DNA of 64,000 nucleotides. It comes from a virus. The notes beneath the pieces are model-generated. The model was not told the DNA's origin. It did not search any database and was given only the letters and a program-made list of their open reading frames with translations. The position numbers were made by a program, and so were the translations under genes. Numbering within the stretch: the stretch's first letter is position 1; each line of letters opens with the position of its first letter. The DNA is taken from the IMG/VR virus record IMGVR_UViG_3300009184_005291, positions 21,126 to 85,125 of that record; one strand, given 5' to 3'. This document shows, one piece after another, positions 9,085 to 23,872 of the stretch.

Positions 9085-10494
9085 ATGGCTTTTAATTATT
9101 ATATTGCGTCTTCTTGTAACTCTTCCACAAATTTATATGTAAAGTCGGAGGAAAATCTTATTGTGGGTAAAATCTACGACTTAATCATCGAAGGTGGTGG
9201 GAACGGATGTTATTCAATTGATCCTGGTGTTGAAACACCATTGGCATTGACCGCAACAATTTTTAATGGACCATGGAATAATTGTCCTGAATGTTTGGGA
9301 GATATAACCCCAACCCCAACGGCATCAAATACTCCAACACCAACTGTTACTACAACTAATACTCAAACTCCAACTAACACTGCAACAAAAACTCCAACAC
9401 CTACGCCAACTAATACACAAACTGCGACACAAACTTCTACTCCTACAGTAACTCCAACTAATACTACAACTCCGACTGTAACTCCAACAAAAACAACAAC
9501 TCCAACTAATACTACAACTCCGACTGTAACTCCAACAAAAACAACAACTCCGACTGTTACTACAACTAATACTCAAACTCCAACTAACACTGCAACAAAA
9601 ACTCCAACACCTACGCCAACTAATACTACAACTCCGACTGTAACTCCAACAAAAACAACAACTCCGACTGTAACACCAACTAATACCTCTACTCCAACAG
9701 TTACTCCAACAAATACTGTCACACCAACAAAATCTCCTTTACCTTTCACTTATTATATTATAACTCCGTGTGCGGGTGGAGAAGCGTTCTATGCCAAATT
9801 TATAGGTAACCTCATAAATAATAAAATTTATGATTTATCATTCGAAGACGCAAGTCATCAATGTTATACTGTTGTTGATGGATTTGAAACTCCATTAGCC
9901 CTAACAGTGACAATTTTTAACGGTCCTTGGAATACTTGTGTCGAGTGTCTTGATGATATAACTCCAACACCAACGGCATCAAATACTCCAACACCAACTC
10001 TTACTCCAACTAATACTCAAACACCAACTAACACTGCTACAAAAACTCCAACACCTACGCCAACTAACACACAAACGCCAACTAATACTTCAACACAAAC
10101 TCAAACACCAACTAACACATCGTCGGCAACAAGAACACCGACACCAAGTGTAACGTCAACTCAAACACAGACACCAACAAATACCGCAACAAGAACTCCG
10201 ACTCCGAGCATCACTTCATCACCTACAGGAACAGCTGGACTGACACCTACACCAACAGGAACACCGGCATCGACTCCAACATCGACTCCAACACCAAGTG
10301 TAACTCCGTATCTTGTTATTGAAGTGAACCAACAATATGAATATACTCTTGGTATGTTGGGTTCATTTAGCGGAGGAACTGCACCGTCAGGTTCAACAGT
10401 TCCATATCAAGTCATGACTAGTGAAGATGGGGATGAAGTAATTGTACAACTAAACGCAATTTCTTTAGGAGGATTTCAAGGATTAAATAATTAA
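9085..10494 (+). CDS. Thr/Pro-repeat virion appendage protein with duplicated module
   Basis: 469 aa. A globular module of about 70 residues (YYIASSCNSS... ending FNGPWNNCPECLGDITPTPT) is followed by about 145 residues of Thr/Pro/Asn repeats, then a second copy of the module (YYIITPCAGG... ending FNGPWNTCVECLDDITPTPT), a second repeat tract of about 110 residues, and a C-terminal domain of about 60 residues. The modules keep two CPEC/CVEC-type Cys pairs. The Thr/Pro tracts resemble mucin or stalk linkers and would be extended. The gene is near the head module and shares its repeat style with the fibre genes at 59-64 kb, so a virion surface fibre or decoration is likely; no receptor-binding domain is recognised. 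Confidence 0.75.
   Translation: MAFNYYIASSCNSSTNLYVKSEENLIVGKIYDLIIEGGGNGCYSIDPGVETPLALTATIFNGPWNNCPECLGDITPTPTASNTPTPTVTTTNTQTPTNTATKTPTPTPTNTQTATQTSTPTVTPTNTTTPTVTPTKTTTPTNTTTPTVTPTKTTTPTVTTTNTQTPTNTATKTPTPTPTNTTTPTVTPTKTTTPTVTPTNTSTPTVTPTNTVTPTKSPLPFTYYIITPCAGGEAFYAKFIGNLINNKIYDLSFEDASHQCYTVVDGFETPLALTVTIFNGPWNTCVECLDDITPTPTASNTPTPTLTPTNTQTPTNTATKTPTPTPTNTQTPTNTSTQTQTPTNTSSATRTPTPSVTSTQTQTPTNTATRTPTPSITSSPTGTAGLTPTPTGTPASTPTSTPTPSVTPYLVIEVNQQYEYTLGMLGSFSGGTAPSGSTVPYQVMTSEDGDEVIVQLNAISLGGFQGLNN
9305..9735 (+). repeat. Thr/Pro-coding tandem repeat tract 1
   Basis: Imperfect repeats of codons for Thr-Pro-Thr and Thr-Asn-Thr. Blocks of 60-100 bp recur almost exactly (for example the segment from about 9340 recurs from about 9550), which suggests slippage or recombination. 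Confidence 0.9.
9958..10300 (+). repeat. Thr/Pro-coding tandem repeat tract 2
   Basis: The same codon repeats as tract 1, beginning with a near copy of its first 60 bases (both start with ACTCCAACACCAACGGCATC or a close variant). Confidence 0.9.
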
Positions 10495-14320: not shown

Positions 14321-16081
14321 GTGAACAAAGAACAATTAATTATAGAATATACGAAGTGTATGAGGAGTACTCCTTATGCACTTCGTTCTTATTTACAGAC
14401 ATACGATAATACAGTATCAAAGTATGTCCCATTAGAACTTTTTCCTGACCAAGTTTCACTACTTGAAGATTACGAAAGCTACAACGAAAACATTGCATTA
14501 AAATACAGACAAGCGGGGGTTTCAACTGTAACCGCGGCTTGGGCGTCAAAAAAACTTGCGTTTGCAAGAAAGGAAAAACCTGAAAAAGTTCTAATCATCG
14601 CCAACAAGTTGGATACTTCTGTGGAAATGGCCAACAAAATAAGGGCATTTATTGAACAATGGCCTGATTGGGTTGATATAAGATTCTCTGTGGAAAAAAA
14701 CTCCCAAAGACATTTCAAACTAAATAATGGATGTGAAGTTAAAGCGGTGGCAACATCCAAAGATGCTCTTAGAGGTTATACACCAACAATTCTTATTTTT
14801 GACGAAGCCGCCTTTATCGAGGCAGATGGAGACTTTTGGTCTGCTTGTATGGCTTCACTATCCACGGGTGGTAAAGTTATTGTAGTTTCCACACCAAACG
14901 GTTACGACCCAATCTATTATGAAATATATGACCAAGCATTAAGAGGAATGAATGATTTCAAAATCTCTGAAATGTTTTGGTATCGAGACCCTCGTTATAC
15001 CAAAGATTTGTACATGGTAAAGACAAATGATTTGGTTCATTATCTTTTGAATCGAGAAGATTATCCAATAGATACCGTAATTAACTTATCCAATAATAAT
15101 CCTTATGATAGAGACCATACTATTGTAACAGATTATATTTCCCAAGGATATAAACCTTGTTCTGCATGGTTTGAGGGAATGGTAAAAAAGCTCAAGTACG
15201 ATAGACGTAAAGTTGCTCAAGAACTTGAATGTAACTTCTTAGGATCGGGTGATAACGTATTCGATTCAGATCTAATGCAGAACATTTCCAAAAACCAATT
15301 AAGACCTCCACAAGCTAAACTTATGGGTAACGCTCTGTGGATTTTTAAGGAACCTGTAAATGGACATAAATATGTTATGGGGGTTGACGTTTCTCGTGGT
15401 GACTCTGAGGATTTTTCATCAATCCAAATTATTGATTTTGATGAACGGGAACAAGTATTAGAATATGTTGGTAAAATCCCTCCCGATGTTTTAGCAGAAA
15501 TTGCTTATAAGTGGGGGACAATGTACAATGCATTCTGTGTAATTGATATTACAGGAGGTATGGGAGTTTCAACCGCCAGAAAAATGCAAGAATTACAATA
15601 TCAACCCGGATTGTATGTTGATGGAGTCGATACTTCTAACAAATGGAAGTGGGACCCGAAAATAAATGAAAAAATTCCTGGTATCAACTTCAACACAAAA
15701 AGAGTTCAAATTATAGCCGCATTTGAAGAGGGGGTTAGACACGGATTTAAGATATATTCACATAGAACGTATAATGAGATGAATACCTTTGTATATATTC
15801 ATGGAAGACCTGATCACCAAAAAGGACAACATGATGATTGTATCATGGGTCTTTCCATGGCAATTTATGTTGCAGAGAAGTCATTTCAGTCATTAACAAA
15901 AGTTGTTAACCACACAAAAGCCATGTTGAATTCGTGGTCTACTGTGATGAATGAAAATAAAAATACTTCAGATTTTTTTAATCCATTGGTACCTCAGATG
16001 GGAAGAGACTCCAACTTGAGTAATAATGGGGCATCCAAAGCGGATTACCAAAAATATGGTTGGTTATTTGGTGCTAAATAA
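14321..16081 (+). CDS. Terminase large subunit (gp17-like)
   Basis: This motor cuts concatemeric DNA and pumps it through the portal into the prohead. ATPase: the Walker A variant RQAGVST at 63-69 (T4 gp17 has a similar SRQLGKTT), Walker B ILIFDEAAFIE at 157-167, and the coupling motif VVSTPNG at 188-194. Nuclease: the RNase-H-like acidic residues in VMGVDVSRGDSEDF (D355, D361), VIDITGG (D409) and a late HDD (QHDDCIMG). 586 aa is close to T4 gp17 (610 aa). The start is a GTG 8 nt after the previous stop; no earlier in-frame ATG fits. Just 36 nt separate it from the portal, with no sheath or tube genes between as in T4. Confidence 0.95.
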   Translation: MNKEQLIIEYTKCMRSTPYALRSYLQTYDNTVSKYVPLELFPDQVSLLEDYESYNENIALKYRQAGVSTVTAAWASKKLAFARKEKPEKVLIIANKLDTSVEMANKIRAFIEQWPDWVDIRFSVEKNSQRHFKLNNGCEVKAVATSKDALRGYTPTILIFDEAAFIEADGDFWSACMASLSTGGKVIVVSTPNGYDPIYYEIYDQALRGMNDFKISEMFWYRDPRYTKDLYMVKTNDLVHYLLNREDYPIDTVINLSNNNPYDRDHTIVTDYISQGYKPCSAWFEGMVKKLKYDRRKVAQELECNFLGSGDNVFDSDLMQNISKNQLRPPQAKLMGNALWIFKEPVNGHKYVMGVDVSRGDSEDFSSIQIIDFDEREQVLEYVGKIPPDVLAEIAYKWGTMYNAFCVIDITGGMGVSTARKMQELQYQPGLYVDGVDTSNKWKWDPKINEKIPGINFNTKRVQIIAAFEEGVRHGFKIYSHRTYNEMNTFVYIHGRPDHQKGQHDDCIMGLSMAIYVAEKSFQSLTKVVNHTKAMLNSWSTVMNENKNTSDFFNPLVPQMGRDSNLSNNGASKADYQKYGWLFGAK

Positions 16082-16117: not shown

Positions 16118-17962
16118 ATGGCAGAACAAAATATGACGGTTTGGCAAAGACTGTCACAAACATTTGGACCTAACTCATTATTAAATCAAGACTATCCAAC
16201 ATTCAAGTTTGATAAAAAGGAACTCCTACGCACAAAAAGTAGAGAGGAGTATGAGAAAGAAAAACTTCAAGCACAACAAACATATTATCTTACCAATCAG
16301 TGGTCTAAGGTTGAAAATAACCTTTATTCTCAGGCGATTTATTATGAACCTACAAGGTTATCTGCTCAGTATGACTACGAATCAATGGAATACACTCCTG
16401 AGATTTCCGCAGCATTAGACATTTATGCCGAAGAGTCAACTACAACAAATGAGGACGGTTTCATATTACAAATTTATTCAGAATCTAAAAGAATTAAGGG
16501 AGTTCTTGCCGATTTATTTAACAATGCTTTAGACATCAACACCAATTTACCTATGTGGACAAGAAACACATGTAAATATGGTGATAACTTTGTATATCTG
16601 AAATTAGACCCTGAAAAAGGAATTGTTGGGGTACAACAATTACCGACTATTGAAATTGAAAGACATGAGGTTGGAGCAAGTGGTAAAATATCTGTCGATG
16701 TAAAAAATGAAGTAGATAAAGATAAAAAGGCGTTACACTTCACATGGAAAAATAAAAATATGGAATTCCAATCTTGGGAAATTGCTCACTTCAGATTATT
16801 AGGTGATGACAGAAAACTTCCATATGGAACTTCCATGTTAGAAAAAGCAAGACGTATTTGGAAACAACTTTTACTATCAGAAGATGCGATGTTAATTTAT
16901 CGTACATCAAGAGCCCCTGAGAGAAGAATGTTCAAAGTATTCGTTGGAAACATGAATGATGACGATGTTGAGGCTTATGTACAACGTGTTGCCAACAAGT
17001 TCAAAAGAGAACAAATTGTTGATAGTAAAACAGGTAACGTAGATATGAGATTCAATCAAATGGCGGTTGACCAAGATTATTTTATTCCTGTAAGAGACCC
17101 CGCAGCGCCAGACCCAATCTCAACATTACCTGGAGCAACTAACTTATCTGAAATTGCCGATATTGAATATATCCAAAAGAAATTGTTAACCGCCCTCCGA
17201 GTACCAAAGGCTTTCTTAGGATTTGAAGAAGTTGTTGGTGATGGTAAAAATTTGGCGTTACAAGATATACGATTTGCTCGTACCATCAACAGAATTCAAA
17301 AGAGTATGATTGCCGAATTGAATAAAATTGCAATTGTACATTTATTTTTATTAGGATTTGAAGACGAACTTTCAAATTTCACAATTGGATTAACAAATCC
17401 ATCTACTCAAGCGGATTTACTTAAAATTGATGTTTGGAAAGAGAAAGTATTATTGTATAAAGATTTGGTTTCTGATCCAGGAAATGGAATTCAGGCAACT
17501 TCATCTACATGGGCTAAGAAGCATATTTTTGGATGGTCAGATGACGAAGTTCGTTTGGACTTACAACAACAAAGAATTGAAAGAGCCGTTGGAGAAGAAT
17601 TAAAAGCGACTCCAACTGTTATAACAAAAACTGGATTGTTTGATAATATTGACAAATTATATGGTAGCCAAACAGGGTCAACACCAACGGCAGGAGCTTC
17701 TACGACAATGGACGGAGGAGAGGAATTAGGATCTCCACCATCATTTGGAGGAGGTGGTGGTGAGATACCTGGAGGAGAACCCGAGTTACCTCCAGCAGGT
17801 GAAGCTCCTCCCGCCGAAATAACACCAGAATCAAGGAAAAAAGATCTAAATATTTTAGTGGAAAATAATTTAATTGAAGGGTCTCGAATAATAAATTTGG
17901 GTCAGGGACAAGATTCTTTAGGAGAAATTTCAAAACACTTAGATAAGTTATTAAATTCATAA
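16118..17962 (+). CDS. Portal vertex protein (gp20-like)
   Basis: The portal forms the dodecameric ring at the head vertex and docks the terminase. The protein (614 aa; T4 gp20 is 524) shows family landmarks: the N-terminal YEPTRLSAQYDYESMEYTPEIS type segment, the DIYAEES stretch, EKARRIWKQLLLSEDAMLIYRTSRAPERRMFKVFVGN and the DIEYIQKKLLTALRVPKAFLGFE region, all typical of T4-like portals. The C-terminal about 70 residues are Gly/Pro-rich and extend past the T4 protein. It follows the terminase directly. Confidence 0.93.
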   Translation: MAEQNMTVWQRLSQTFGPNSLLNQDYPTFKFDKKELLRTKSREEYEKEKLQAQQTYYLTNQWSKVENNLYSQAIYYEPTRLSAQYDYESMEYTPEISAALDIYAEESTTTNEDGFILQIYSESKRIKGVLADLFNNALDINTNLPMWTRNTCKYGDNFVYLKLDPEKGIVGVQQLPTIEIERHEVGASGKISVDVKNEVDKDKKALHFTWKNKNMEFQSWEIAHFRLLGDDRKLPYGTSMLEKARRIWKQLLLSEDAMLIYRTSRAPERRMFKVFVGNMNDDDVEAYVQRVANKFKREQIVDSKTGNVDMRFNQMAVDQDYFIPVRDPAAPDPISTLPGATNLSEIADIEYIQKKLLTALRVPKAFLGFEEVVGDGKNLALQDIRFARTINRIQKSMIAELNKIAIVHLFLLGFEDELSNFTIGLTNPSTQADLLKIDVWKEKVLLYKDLVSDPGNGIQATSSTWAKKHIFGWSDDEVRLDLQQQRIERAVGEELKATPTVITKTGLFDNIDKLYGSQTGSTPTAGASTTMDGGEELGSPPSFGGGGGEIPGGEPELPPAGEAPPAEITPESRKKDLNILVENNLIEGSRIINLGQGQDSLGEISKHLDKLLNS

Positions 17963-17983: not shown

Positions 17984-18682
17984 ATGACCTTCGGAATAGT
18001 AAAATCCCTAATAGAAAAAAATCTCTTGGAATCATACAAAAATGAAATGGAATTCAAGAAGACTTTACGAGAATTCAAACACAACGTTTTGAATAATAAA
18101 GCTATGTCTAAAGCGTACGACATTTATAGTCAACTGAGTTCACCTCAAGGTTTAGGTGAACAAGATGCAAAAGATTTTATTGAAGAAGGGATTTCTTTAT
18201 TAAACAAAATTTTACCAAGTATTAAACTTCCAATTACTCTTTCCGAAAAAACTGAAAACAATTATACCGAAATTGATACATTAGTTTATAACCAAGGTGT
18301 TAATTTACTTGAAAGATTAAATGCGAAGAAAAATATTTTGAAGGTGGTTACATCAACTAAAGAAACAATTAAAGAAAATATTAATATTCCGATTAGTTCT
18401 ATGGTTACCATAGCAAACCAAACAGTTAATAACTACATACTTAGTTTAGATGAAAATTCTAAAAAAGAATTTTTTCAAATAGTTTCTGAAGATGTCAAAA
18501 CTTTGGAAGCAAAATTTGAAACAATTAAGGAAAGTGCAATATCTAAATTGACGGAACTCCAAAATAGTGAAGATTCGCAAGATATTAAAACAAAAATTTC
18601 AGAAACAATCGATAAAGTTAAGTCTGAAAAGTTTGACCAATTGAATTTTTTGAAATTAAAAAATTTGGAAGAATCAATTTGA
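17984..18682 (+). CDS. Hypothetical head-module protein between portal and protease
   Basis: 232 aa, Lys/Glu/Ile-rich and almost wholly helical, with coiled-coil character in the second half (EAKFETIKESAISKLTELQNSE). It occupies the place of T4 gp67/gp68 (small prohead core proteins) between portal and protease, but no sequence similarity can be claimed. It converges with the bS21 gene, overlapping it by 9 nt at the 3' end. Confidence 0.7.
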   Translation: MTFGIVKSLIEKNLLESYKNEMEFKKTLREFKHNVLNNKAMSKAYDIYSQLSSPQGLGEQDAKDFIEEGISLLNKILPSIKLPITLSEKTENNYTEIDTLVYNQGVNLLERLNAKKNILKVVTSTKETIKENINIPISSMVTIANQTVNNYILSLDENSKKEFFQIVSEDVKTLEAKFETIKESAISKLTELQNSEDSQDIKTKISETIDKVKSEKFDQLNFLKLKNLEESI

Positions 18683-18865
18683 TTGGTCTTTAATACTTTG
18701 AATATATTTCGCTTTTAGAATCTGTGCTCTTCTAAGTACAGATTTTTTTGTATATTCTCTTTTCTCGAATAAAATCTGATTTTGCTTTGTTTTGATTACT
18801 TTTGACTTTAGGGTTTTGAGGGCTTTCTCAATATTGTTACCCTGATTAATTTTAATTATTATCAT
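18674..18865 (-). CDS. rpsU: Ribosomal protein bS21 homologue
   Basis: 63 aa. bS21 sits on the 30S subunit next to the 3' end of 16S rRNA and affects initiation. The sequence IKINQGNNIEKALKTLKSKV, then KREYTKKSVLRR, then ILKAKYIQSIKD follows bS21 along its whole length and resembles the Bacteroidota version, which shares the GENIERALKR...FTKKSVxRRxxIQKAxYIQxLRD pattern. It is inserted on the minus strand inside the plus-strand head module. No strong Shine-Dalgarno precedes the start, unlike host Bacteroidota rpsU, which is reported to have one. A TATTTTTG element lies about 70 nt upstream on the minus strand. Phage bS21 proteins are thought to exchange into host ribosomes. Confidence 0.87.
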   Translation of the reverse strand: MIIIKINQGNNIEKALKTLKSKVIKTKQNQILFEKREYTKKSVLRRAQILKAKYIQSIKDQSN

Positions 18866-18964
18866 ATATTAGAAATATCTTCAAGTATAAAAAAATTTTG
18901 ACATTTATGTATATATTGTATATTTTTTCATTAACAAAAATAAACATACGTAATATCATTATTA

Positions 18965-19402
18965 ATGAAAAAAGGAAAAAGTGTTAAACTTAACCTATTC
19001 AATCCTATTAAGTCCCAATACGGGACAGTAGATTCCAAAAACTTAAAATCGGTTTATATAAATATTCAATCATGGGTTACACCAAAAGATGAGTTAGATA
19101 ATTGGAACCGAATTGTATCTGGTTTAGGAAGAGAAATAAAAAATTCAGTTTTTGAATCAATTGATTCAAAAATTTTTCAAGAAAAAAATATTGTTGATTT
19201 GGACCTAAGAACAAGTGGAATTTCTAAAGGGAAAAAATCATTTTTCAACTTAGAAATTAATCTATACACTCTCCGAGAGATGGATTTCAAATCTGATGAA
19301 ATAAAAGAATCCATAAAAAACATTGTCAAATCAATCTATAAAAATAACGTAGTTCAGAACAAATACTTCGAATTTTCAATTTCTAAAAAAGACGAAATTT
19401 AG
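18965..19402 (+). CDS. Hypothetical 145-aa head-module protein
   Basis: It starts MKKGKSVKLNLFNPIKSQYG and shows an alpha/beta pattern (SVYINIQSWVTPKDELDNWNRIVSGLGREI, then FFNLEINLYTLREMDF). No family recognised. Position between portal and protease suggests a role in head assembly. The start ATG follows an AT-rich spacer of 99 nt shared with the divergent bS21 promoter region. Confidence 0.65.
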   Translation: MKKGKSVKLNLFNPIKSQYGTVDSKNLKSVYINIQSWVTPKDELDNWNRIVSGLGREIKNSVFESIDSKIFQEKNIVDLDLRTSGISKGKKSFFNLEINLYTLREMDFKSDEIKESIKNIVKSIYKNNVVQNKYFEFSISKKDEI

Positions 19403-19441: not shown

Positions 19442-20158
19442 ATGAAAAATTTAAGAATTTTAGAAGCGAGCGAGCTTGGCCACGGTATATTAATTGAAAT
19501 GGACGCTGGTTGGGTTTCTCCGAAAGATGCTCAGAATATTGACATTATAAAAGAAGCATCCAATTTAGATTATAGAAATCCATTTGAATTTTACGCAGTA
19601 CTTCAAAAATATGATACTCCAAATAGAAATGGTAGAACATATCCTGAGAGGATTCTAAAAAGAGAGGCAGATAGATATAAACAATCTATTTCTAAGGGGT
19701 TGTCAACATCTGAATTAAATCACCCTGAATCATCATTAATTGACTTGGACAGAGTATCTCACATCATTACCGATATATGGTGGGATAAAAATATACTCAT
19801 GGGAAAACTCAAATTATTGACATCTCCAGGGTTTCACGAAAGAGGGATTGTTTCGACTAAAGGAGACCAAGCCGCCAACCTAATGAGACAAGGGGTAACT
19901 TTAGGTATTTCTTCAAGAGGTGTTGGGTCGTTGAAGAAAGTAGGAGAAAGAAATGAAGTACAAGATGACTTTGAACTAATCTGTTTTGATTTGGTATCTT
20001 CACCTTCAACTCCAGGAGCATATCTTTTTACTAATCCTGATGAACGAAGTAAATATGAAGAAAATTTAGAGGAGGAAATAAAATCTAAACAAAATAATGA
20101 GTACGCTGAAAAGTCAGTTGACTTAATGAAAAAATTAGACGATTTTTTAAGAAAATAA
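19442..20158 (+). CDS. Prohead core protease (gp21-like)
   Basis: This serine protease cleaves the scaffold and capsid proteins during head maturation. ELNHPE around H94 and GISSRGVGSL with S157/S158 give the His and Ser of the herpesvirus-assemblin-like fold shared by T4 gp21, and the segment CFDLVSSPSTPGAYL is another hallmark of the family. The protein is 238 aa, close to T4 gp21 (212 aa). It precedes the scaffold and capsid genes as in T4. Confidence 0.92.
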   Translation: MKNLRILEASELGHGILIEMDAGWVSPKDAQNIDIIKEASNLDYRNPFEFYAVLQKYDTPNRNGRTYPERILKREADRYKQSISKGLSTSELNHPESSLIDLDRVSHIITDIWWDKNILMGKLKLLTSPGFHERGIVSTKGDQAANLMRQGVTLGISSRGVGSLKKVGERNEVQDDFELICFDLVSSPSTPGAYLFTNPDERSKYEENLEEEIKSKQNNEYAEKSVDLMKKLDDFLRK

Positions 20159-20497: not shown

Positions 20498-22036
20498 ATG
20501 CAAGAAAATAAAAACTTAGTACAGGAGGCGTTAATTCAAATGAAAAATGTTGAAGAAGCTATCGCCCAGAACGCAAAAGGAATACTTGCTTCTACTATGA
20601 AGGAAGAAATCAACCAATTAGTAAAAGAATCTCTATCAGAACAAGACATGGAAGATGAGGTTGAATTAGATACAGACATCGAAATGGATGAACCTGTTGA
20701 TAATGAAGATGATATGGAAATGGACATGGAATTTGACATGGACATGGATATGGATTCAGAAGAAAGTCCAATAGATTTGACTGACGCTTCTGACGAAGAA
20801 ATTCTGAAGGTGTTCAAGGCCATGGGTGAAGAAGATGGCATCATCGTAAAAAAAGATGGTGAAGATATTCACTTAACCGATAATGACACCGATTCTGAAT
20901 ACTTAGTTAAGCTTGGTGAGTCTGAAGAAGACGAAGAAGAATTAGACGAAACAATGCACATGGATGAAATGGATGACATGGATCTTGACACAGAAGATGT
21001 TATCAATGCAATTTTCTCTAAAGATGGCGATGTTGAAGACATCGACATGGAGGATGAAGAAGTTATGTACGAAATTGAATTTAACGAAGAAGATGATGAC
21101 ATGATGGAACAAGAAGATGATGACATGATGGAAGAAGAAGATGACGACATGATGGAAGAAGAAGATTTGGACGAATCTTACAACCACAGAAGATCTGTTA
21201 GAGAAGGTAAATCGACAGTAAAACCTAAGGGTGTTGGAATTGGGTCTGGACCAAAATTCACTTACAAAGATAAAGCTAAAGGCGGATTCGATGAAAAGAA
21301 GAAAGAAGGACCAAAATCAGTTGGTACTGGTAAACCAAAATTCGAATACAAGAAAGGTGAAAATATGGAACAAAAATCCAAAGTTGTTAAGGCAGAAACA
21401 AAAGAAGGTCAAGGATACAAAGACAAAGAGGATGAAAGATTGGCAATGAAACATGGTAAAATTGCTTCAAAAGATCTTAAAACTACTAAGGCTCGTAGAG
21501 ATGACGCAGGTTTTGAAAAAAGAGAAACCAAAGAGGCGGCTAGAACTTATGGAATGGGTTCAAAAGAAGGACGAGGACTAAGAAAAGGTATTACTAATAA
21601 CAGAAATTATGTTTATGGTAAAAACGGAGTAAAAGTTGAATCCACAGAATCAGAAGTTAATGTGTTGAGAGAAAAGAATGAAGAGTACAGAAAAGCATTA
21701 AATATTTTCAGAGAAAAACTTAATGAAGTTGCTATCTTCAACTCAAACTTGGCATATGCTACAAGATTGTTCACTGAACATTCGACCACTAAAAAAGAGA
21801 AAATTAATATTCTTAGAAGATTCGATAATGTAGATACTTTGAAAGAATCTAAAAATCTTTATAGGTCAATTAAAGATGAATTGTCTAAAACTGAAAGTAC
21901 ACCAATTAACGAATCAGTAGAAGCTAAATTAAACAAGAATGTTTCTACAGGTTCATCAACTACCCTAATTGAATCAAAAACTTATGAGAATCCTCAATTC
22001 TTAAGAATGAAAGATTTGATGAGTAAAATTGGGTAA
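20498..22036 (+). CDS. Prohead scaffold/core protein (gp22-like)
   Basis: 512 aa. Its place between protease and capsid, together with very acidic Met/Asp/Glu repeats (residues about 48-90 and 145-225, including three copies of a DDDMMEEE-type unit), a basic middle (GSGPKFTYKDKAKGG...) and a helical C-terminal end (EEYRKALNIFREKLNEVAIFNSNLAYATRLFTEHSTTKKEKI), points to the major core protein around which the head assembles. The C-terminal helix NSNLAYATRL...TKKEKI is the part most like T4-like gp22. At 512 aa it is nearly double T4 gp22 (269 aa) owing to the acidic inserts. It is expected to be degraded by the protease. Confidence 0.8.
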   Translation: MQENKNLVQEALIQMKNVEEAIAQNAKGILASTMKEEINQLVKESLSEQDMEDEVELDTDIEMDEPVDNEDDMEMDMEFDMDMDMDSEESPIDLTDASDEEILKVFKAMGEEDGIIVKKDGEDIHLTDNDTDSEYLVKLGESEEDEEELDETMHMDEMDDMDLDTEDVINAIFSKDGDVEDIDMEDEEVMYEIEFNEEDDDMMEQEDDDMMEEEDDDMMEEEDLDESYNHRRSVREGKSTVKPKGVGIGSGPKFTYKDKAKGGFDEKKKEGPKSVGTGKPKFEYKKGENMEQKSKVVKAETKEGQGYKDKEDERLAMKHGKIASKDLKTTKARRDDAGFEKRETKEAARTYGMGSKEGRGLRKGITNNRNYVYGKNGVKVESTESEVNVLREKNEEYRKALNIFREKLNEVAIFNSNLAYATRLFTEHSTTKKEKINILRRFDNVDTLKESKNLYRSIKDELSKTESTPINESVEAKLNKNVSTGSSTTLIESKTYENPQFLRMKDLMSKIG

Positions 22037-22078: not shown

Positions 22079-23872
22079 ATGGGAGCATTATTAGAATCAG
22101 GTCTTGTAGGTAACATCGGTCTTAAGCACCTTAAAGTTATCAAAGAAGACACAATCAACAAATGGGACAAATTAGGATTCTTAGAGGGTCTTAAGGGTCA
22201 CATGAGAGAGAACGTAGCTCAACTTTATGAAAACCAAGCTTCTCACTTAATCAACGAAGCATCATCTACATCTGATACAGGTGCATTTGAGACAGTGGTT
22301 TTCCCTATCGTTAGAAGAGTTTTCTCTAAATTATTAGCAAACGATATCGTTTCAGTACAAGCAATGAACTTACCAATCGGTAAATTATTCTACTTCGTAC
22401 CTAACATCCAATCTTATGAGAATGGACAGAATCAACACTGGGCTCCTTACGGATCACCAAACGCTGCGGCTGACCAAACTCCTAATTCAGGATATGATTA
22501 CAACTTAACTAAAGACCTTTACGATAGATTCTACGAAGGTAACGAACCAGCGTTGGATCCACCAGGTTTATTCGACTATTCAAAAGGACAGTTTTCAGCG
22601 ATTACTGCTGACGTTACAACTGTAGCATGGGCTGGAAGCAACTTGATTCCTTCAGCGTATACTCTTTCTGATTACAGAAAAGTATTGATAGTTATGTCAG
22701 GTTTTGCTTCTGATGGAGCAGGTAAGTTAATTGGTCCTGATGGTCAACCAATGGATAACGAAGCATTCTTATCTGATTTGACTGTTTATGGTTCAGCTGG
22801 TAACGTTTACACTTCAGCTAACACATCAAACCCTTACTTATTCAGAGTTGTAACTCAGAGATATGGTAAAGGTATTGTAGAATATGGTAATAACAACCAA
22901 ACGTTGGTATTCCCTAACAGTAAGACAGATGGTGGTCAGTTTGACAACGTTTGTGACGCTGAAGGTAAAATCTACTTAGAAGTTGATTTACAAGTACCAG
23001 TATGTATCACTTGCGGTGGTTCATTAGATGGTTACACTGGTTCAACATTCGCGTCAACAATCGCAACTAACTCTCAAGCATTCTCAGCAACTTATAGAAT
23101 CTATAAGAACTTGGAATTCGAAGACAGAATTGGTGAAGTTTCTTTTGACCTTATGTCAGTAACAGTTTCTGTAACTGAAAGAAAATTAAGAGCTCAGTGG
23201 TCTCCAGAAATGGCTCAGGACGTTGCGGCATTCCACAACATCGACGCTGAAGCTGAATTAACAGCATTGTTATCTGAGCAAGTTGCTGCTGAAATCGATA
23301 GAGAAATCTTGAGAGACCTTAGAAAAGCTGCAGCTTGGAACTTAAGATGGGATTACAATGGATGGAAGAGATTAGGTTCTTCTGCAGTACCTTATACTCA
23401 GAAAGACTGGAACCAAACTCTTATCACAGCAATCAACCAAATTTCTGCACAAATCCACAAGTCAACATTGAGAGGTGGAGCTAACTGGATCGTTGTTTCT
23501 TCTGAAATCAGTGCTATCTTTGATGACTTGGAATACTTCCACGTATCAAACGCAGCTCCTGAGCAGGATCAGTACAACATGGGTATTGAAAGAGTTGGTA
23601 CATTAGCAGGTCGTTACCAAGTGTATAGAGACCCTTACTTCCCACCTAACCAAGTGTTGATGGGTCACAAAGGAACTTCTCTATTGGACACAGGTTACAT
23701 CTACGCACCGTATGTACCTCTACAATTAACTCCTACAATGTACAATCCGTTTAACTTTACTCCGATTAAGGGTATTATGACGAGATACGCTAAGAAAGTT
23801 GTCAACAATCGCTTTTACGGACGAATTACAGTTGATGGTGTTAGAACATTTGACTTGAGAGAATTGAGATAA
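22079..23872 (+). CDS. Major capsid protein (gp23-like)
   Basis: 597 aa (T4 gp23 521 aa). The segment TGAFETVVFPIVRRVFSKLLANDIVSVQAMNLP, the glycine-rich loop after IGKLFYFVP and the C-terminal PYVPLQLTPTMYNPFNFTPIKGIMTRYAKKVVNNRFYGRI are characteristic of T4-like HK97-fold capsid proteins. A likely prohead-protease site is LINE|A after residue 60, matching the (L/I)xE consensus and close to T4's cut after 65. The gene uses more C-ending codons (aac, ttc, tac) than its neighbours, as expected for the most abundant protein. It lies 42 nt after the scaffold gene and ends before a terminator. Confidence 0.95.
   Translation: MGALLESGLVGNIGLKHLKVIKEDTINKWDKLGFLEGLKGHMRENVAQLYENQASHLINEASSTSDTGAFETVVFPIVRRVFSKLLANDIVSVQAMNLPIGKLFYFVPNIQSYENGQNQHWAPYGSPNAAADQTPNSGYDYNLTKDLYDRFYEGNEPALDPPGLFDYSKGQFSAITADVTTVAWAGSNLIPSAYTLSDYRKVLIVMSGFASDGAGKLIGPDGQPMDNEAFLSDLTVYGSAGNVYTSANTSNPYLFRVVTQRYGKGIVEYGNNNQTLVFPNSKTDGGQFDNVCDAEGKIYLEVDLQVPVCITCGGSLDGYTGSTFASTIATNSQAFSATYRIYKNLEFEDRIGEVSFDLMSVTVSVTERKLRAQWSPEMAQDVAAFHNIDAEAELTALLSEQVAAEIDREILRDLRKAAAWNLRWDYNGWKRLGSSAVPYTQKDWNQTLITAINQISAQIHKSTLRGGANWIVVSSEISAIFDDLEYFHVSNAAPEQDQYNMGIERVGTLAGRYQVYRDPYFPPNQVLMGHKGTSLLDTGYIYAPYVPLQLTPTMYNPFNFTPIKGIMTRYAKKVVNNRFYGRITVDGVRTFDLRELR

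Follow-up and report, generated by a model that had tools for sequence, protein, structure and literature searches.

The 64-kb window (the whole stretch of viral DNA analyzed in this study) carries a gene for the small ribosomal protein bS21, on the opposite strand to the head genes that surround it. The explanation that we favor, with a probability of about 0.6 based on sequence, is that this gene encodes a functional Bacteroidota-type bS21 of a large T4-like phage, which enters host 30S subunits late in infection, keeps the anti-Shine-Dalgarno (ASD) end of 16S rRNA covered and escapes the Shine-Dalgarno (SD) feedback acting on host rpsU. Bacteroidota bS21 is a switch between SD-blind and SD-competent ribosomes, with host rpsU among the few genes so controlled, and an SD-less phage copy would alter ribosome composition outside that feedback. 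A reversed bS21 gene in the head block is already published for this phage group. The 47 genomes of Chen et al. (2022; PMC9723584), from freshwater myophages that infect Bacteroidetes, have bS21 reversed between two hypothetical genes in the TerL-portal-protease-MCP block. The new part, and that on which the weight of the case lies, is the SD contrast with the host gene and the anatomy of the boundary at which the gene sits.

The bS21 (rpsU homologue) open reading frame occupies 18674..18865 on the minus strand (start ATG 18865-18863, stop TGA 18676-18674) and encodes 63 aa, MIIIKINQGNNIEKALKTLKSKVIKTKQNQILFEKREYTKKSVLRRAQILKAKYIQSIKDQSN. That it is a genuine bS21-family gene is close to certain, judged by the reading frame, a Pfam match, a structural relative, a tree and pN/pS values. 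PF01165 (Ribosomal_S21) matched residues 4-54 at 33.3 bits (cut-off 27), and the nearest solved relative, Flavobacterium johnsoniae bS21 (7jil_z, E=4.2e-10), was colinear over residues 1-61, which bears out the sequence-only reading of the protein as colinear with Bacteroidota bS21. The match to PHROG 21469 (“ribosomal protein S21”) was weak, and the NCBIfam S21p equivalog scored 24 bits, under its cut-off of 28.95, indicating that the window protein is a divergent member of the family. The reading frame was intact across about 100 viral contigs, and pN/pS between the window gene and its relatives was 0.07-0.26 among the relatives listed, which shows purifying selection at the protein level. 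The window has a GC content of 33%, and no tRNA genes were found in its 64 kb.

In a tree of 153 rows and only 64 columns, all 40 distinct phage rows formed a single clade (support 100/97) nested within the Flavobacteriales-type bS21 group (94/92), so that the protein groups with the Bacteroidia type and the phylogenetic affinity with host bS21 expected from the sequence-only reading was recovered. The nearest relatives, adjoining the phage clade, were the Bacteroidota-type bS21 proteins of two megaphages, LR745206 and LR756501 (635-735 kb). Those genes differ in lying outside this head block, there being no matches to the window head proteins within 6 kb of them. An aromatic residue 54, which stacks on A1534, is one mark of the ASD-sequestering class of bS21. 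The window protein has Tyr54, and all 66 distinct phage bS21 proteins carry an aromatic residue at this ASD-contacting position (Y in 50, H in 15 and F in 1). The protein is 48% identical to F. johnsoniae bS21 (7jil; PMC9976891) over 61 residues and shares its Tyr54, the one position at which contacts to the 16S tail were compared. The C-terminal half is conserved between the two, whereas the N-terminal half has diverged and KKS replaces KPS at residues 40-42. A phage-specific block conserved in the clade, LKSKVIKTKQ, stands where hosts have a KRKFxKTG region.

The genes flanking bS21 form a recognizable T4-like head block on the plus strand. A terminase large subunit (14321..16081; Pfam Terminase_6N, PHROG 2) and a T4 gp20-like portal (16118..17962; Pfam Portal_T4, 254 bits) are followed by a 232-aa head-block protein that we call gpX (17984..18682), which is convergent with bS21, their 3' ends overlapping tail-to-tail by 9 bp (18674..18682). 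On the other side, and divergent from bS21, lies a conserved 145-aa protein, div (18965..19402), and then a T4 gp21-like prohead protease (19442..20158; Pfam Peptidase_S77, PHROG 207), an acidic protein placed as the putative scaffold by position and composition (20498..22036), and a T4 gp23-like major capsid protein (MCP; 22079..23872; Pfam Gp23, 242 bits). Neither gpX nor the acidic protein had a significant family match in Pfam or PHROG. Thus bS21 lies opposite in strand between portal and protease with one uncharacterized head-block gene on either side, gpX being syntenic in 101 loci and div in 99.

The sequence-only reading gave this position exactly, but what it called an odd location is a conserved and published slot. 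In the 102 IMG/VR viral contigs recovered by bS21, head-gene order was identical and every matched head gene was on the opposite strand to bS21. A survey free of bias toward bS21, in which loci were found by the neighboring protease, gave 67 loci with enough flank, and bS21 was in the slot at 61 of them. The remaining six (L296, L300, L304, L305, L307 and L329) retained gpX and div without bS21 between them, these being contig fragments in which absence refers to the slot. Four of the six could be assigned a position in an unrooted tree, where they formed one group. The lack of bS21 in the slot at these six loci indicates that the gene is dispensable somewhere among the relatives. A further scan found the slot with bS21 in more diverged phages also, along with a few bS21 genes elsewhere. 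One locus, L411, is an exception in orientation, with bS21 near portal, protease and MCP on their own strand and no match to div. The arrangement in the window resembles that of the phages of Chen et al. (clades a-e), which are large low-GC myoviruses with a reversed bS21 in the same block, closest to Flavobacteriia bS21 and with an aromatic residue 54. No decisive difference from them was seen in the present record, an 85-kb IMG/VR fragment with exactly one bS21.

We considered gpX and div as homologues of T4 gp67 and gp68. Their position fits; hhalign runs with individual T4 sequences did not back the match, and the assignment was dropped. For div, a first structure model was poor (pLDDT 59) and a second, from AlphaFold2, was confident (pLDDT 91). 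Searched by structure, div matched nothing in the PDB at E<=0.001 and had a single relative, an uncharacterized myovirus protein. Its YGT, DLDxR and NLE motifs are invariant among relatives.

The contrast with host rpsU lies in the leader. McNutt et al. (2023; PMC9976891), who also discussed phage bS21, described autoregulation of F. johnsoniae rpsU through an extended SD recognized by bS21-lacking ribosomes. We scored each leader by the best duplex of its 25 nt (final 2 nt omitted) with the 16S tail UCACCUCCUUUCU. The window leader, TTATACTTGAAGATATTTCTAATAT, gave -1.7 kcal/mol, and the absence of an evident SD noted in the sequence-only reading proved to be clade-wide, the 80 distinct leaders of bS21 genes in the slot having a median of -0.5 kcal/mol and a best value of -7.2. 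Leaders of rpsU in host Flavobacteriaceae had a median of -17.6 kcal/mol (59 distinct), with 53 of the 59 at or below -7, such that the two distributions barely overlap (Mann-Whitney p=6e-19, a value that overstates the evidence because the leaders are related and non-independent). The extended SD of autoregulated rpsU corresponds to values below about -13 kcal/mol (McNutt 2023), and none of the 80 clade leaders fell below -7.2. The motif TGAGA, complementary to the Chryseobacterium-type ASD described in PMC9976891, was not present in the window leader.

The other genes of the phage are similarly poor in SDs (72 genes, median -1.45 kcal/mol, lowest -8.9). As SD-free leaders are the norm for this phage, the missing SD is not a special adaptation of bS21 and need not have been selected; its significance lies solely in the difference from host rpsU. 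The earlier claim that host rpsU is SD-regulated held for the contrast as a whole but not for every host, as 6 of the 59 distinct rpsU leaders lacked an SD. In Psychroflexus and Mesohalobacter the sole bS21 copy seen is SD-less (single copies at L130, L149, L169 and L170), and a second, SD-less bS21 was found beside an SD-bearing one in Hanstruepera (L194), Mesonia (L195/L161) and genome G096 (L260). The SD-less copy of Mesonia sits after an rpoD-like sigma factor gene. Loss of the SD is not general among phage bS21 genes, since the 735-kb megaphage LR756501 (L083) has an SD-like bS21 leader, AAAGGAGG, at -12.1 kcal/mol. An SD-like leader (-9.7 kcal/mol) was also seen at L354, a phage bS21 outside the slot.

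The slot appears to be a boundary between two transcription units. A terminator-like hairpin of 11-12 bp with a T-run (18717..18753, plus strand) lies antisense within the bS21 coding sequence, where it is predicted to end the upstream terL-portal-gpX unit. One such hairpin was found versus 0.4 expected in shuffles, and synonymous recoding of bS21 reached its score in 1% of trials (p=0.01). It is present in most near relatives, is formed by different sequence in some groups (L064, L101/L105), and is absent in more diverged members that keep bS21. Its T-run is supplied by the phage-typical KKS codons, where hosts have KPS. Covariation was tried as proof of the antisense terminator and was modest only, with three pairs changed on both sides, a number reached by 32 of 500 shuffles; coding constraint and shared ancestry limit such variation.

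A promoter-like TTGACA-N17-TATTTT (18898..18926, plus strand) precedes the downstream div-protease-scaffold-MCP unit. The arrangement is the same in bS21-less relatives, where an ordinary terminator-like hairpin comes after gpX and TTGACA-N17-TATATT then precedes div. A conserved TGTCAAAA in the bS21 leader was rejected as a bS21 promoter element, as TTTTGACA-N17-TATATT serves div in those relatives. With a hairpin antisense to it and a promoter-like site for div, bS21 would lie in the interval that separates two head units, facing the end of the upstream one and reading away from the start of the downstream one. Chen et al. (PMC9723584) do not treat promoters, terminators or leaders; the predicted boundary agrees with their remark that the region is not a single operon.

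A candidate -10/-7 promoter element for bS21 itself is the GATATTTC box (18872..18879, minus strand), 14 to 7 nt ahead of the ATG. Its sequence is similar to TAnnTTTG, the -7 box of Bacteroidota promoters (cited in PMC7366714). Of the 80 distinct leaders, 64 have the GATATTT[C/G/T] box, counted as ATATTT, beginning 12-15 nt ahead of the ATG, versus 4% expected under a Markov null. With one variant base allowed, 31 of the 33 representatives of divergent leaders had the box (missing in L097 and L318). It was not found in the slot of the relatives without bS21. By either T4 late or Bacteroidota promoter spacing, bS21 transcription would start about 0-6 nt before the ATG. The conserved box thus suggests that the bS21 mRNA leader is very short, about 0-6 nt, or absent.

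A second motif, TATTTATA, the reverse complement of the T4 late promoter TATAAATA, was found with at most one mismatch upstream of 14 of 24 non-operonic window genes versus 2 of 41 operon-internal ones, examples being those upstream of 16118, 20498, 8288 and 58157. In five genes it lies just 11-12 nt before the ATG, which suggests that several genes are near-leaderless. The bS21 box is related to this motif but was rejected as an instance of it, most copies being one base off and the score reaching only p~0.013 at fixed position.

In the explanation that we favor, phage bS21 is most likely made late, a timing taken from published relatives, in which Chen et al. (PMC9723584) reported high bS21 transcription alongside structural genes and proposed that the phage protein replaces host bS21 late in infection. 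It would then be inserted into host 30S subunits, replacing or adding to host bS21. Since it retains the C-terminal half, which in F. johnsoniae keeps the 16S 3' tail off mRNA, loaded ribosomes should stay SD-blind, a state that would suit the SD-free phage mRNAs. Ribosomes filled with phage bS21 would also keep host rpsU repressed, and the phage gene, lacking an SD, should escape the feedback by which bS21-lacking ribosomes favor rpsU. A stronger version would be a one-way takeover, in which the late mRNA for an ASD-occluding phage bS21 has little or no leader and lies beyond ASD control, host rpsU, dependent on a free ASD, is held off by the resulting ribosomes, and the host protein is progressively displaced. 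We offer it as a tentative extension that is less likely than not.

A simpler account would have the phage copy merely complete 30S subunits once host rpsU transcription is off, with specificity and regulation unchanged. bS21 is an exchangeable, late-joining protein (PMC6375957, PMC9976891), and conservation of the C-terminal half would lead one to expect the phage and host proteins to be functionally equivalent; the SD-free leader is neither needed by such an account nor contrary to it. However, the sustained phage-specific N-terminal block would go unexplained, and we consider simple supply possible but rather unlikely. That same block, in place of the host KRKFxKTG region, favors the published proposal of a specialized ribosome, in which the diverged N-terminal half near the mRNA path would confer a preference for phage mRNAs, as does the finding by Chen et al. 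(PMC9723584) that divergence from hosts lies mainly in the N-terminal helix. Yet that divergence could be drift, and the phage genes resemble ordinary SD-less Bacteroidota genes, with no phage-only mRNA feature shown, so specialization is also doubtful in our judgment. Least probable by far is that bS21 is no longer ribosomal, and is either packaged in the virion, as Chen et al. raised (PMC9723584), or kept mainly for its antisense terminator. The location of the gene within the head block and the hairpin inside its coding sequence would suit such a role, but purifying selection acts on the protein, residue 54 is always aromatic, diverged members keep bS21 without the hairpin, and bS21-less relatives have an ordinary terminator.

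The entry into host 30S subunits that we infer has a precedent in Mizuno et al. (2019; PMC6375957), who found that phage bS21 enters E. coli ribosomes, although E. coli ribosomes bearing the pelagiphage protein translated at only ~5%. The bS21 of Pelagibacter phage HTVC008M, described in PMC6375957 as a protein that enters E. coli ribosomes, is like that of the window in being borne by a myovirus and probably host-derived; it differs in its alphaproteobacterial type and host. Whether virus-encoded ribosomal proteins specialize host ribosomes has been a question since 2019, and a phage bS21 that lacks the SD offers a concrete and cheap test of it.

Elsewhere in the window, a 469-aa protein with long Thr-Pro-rich repeats is encoded at 9085-10494 on the plus strand.
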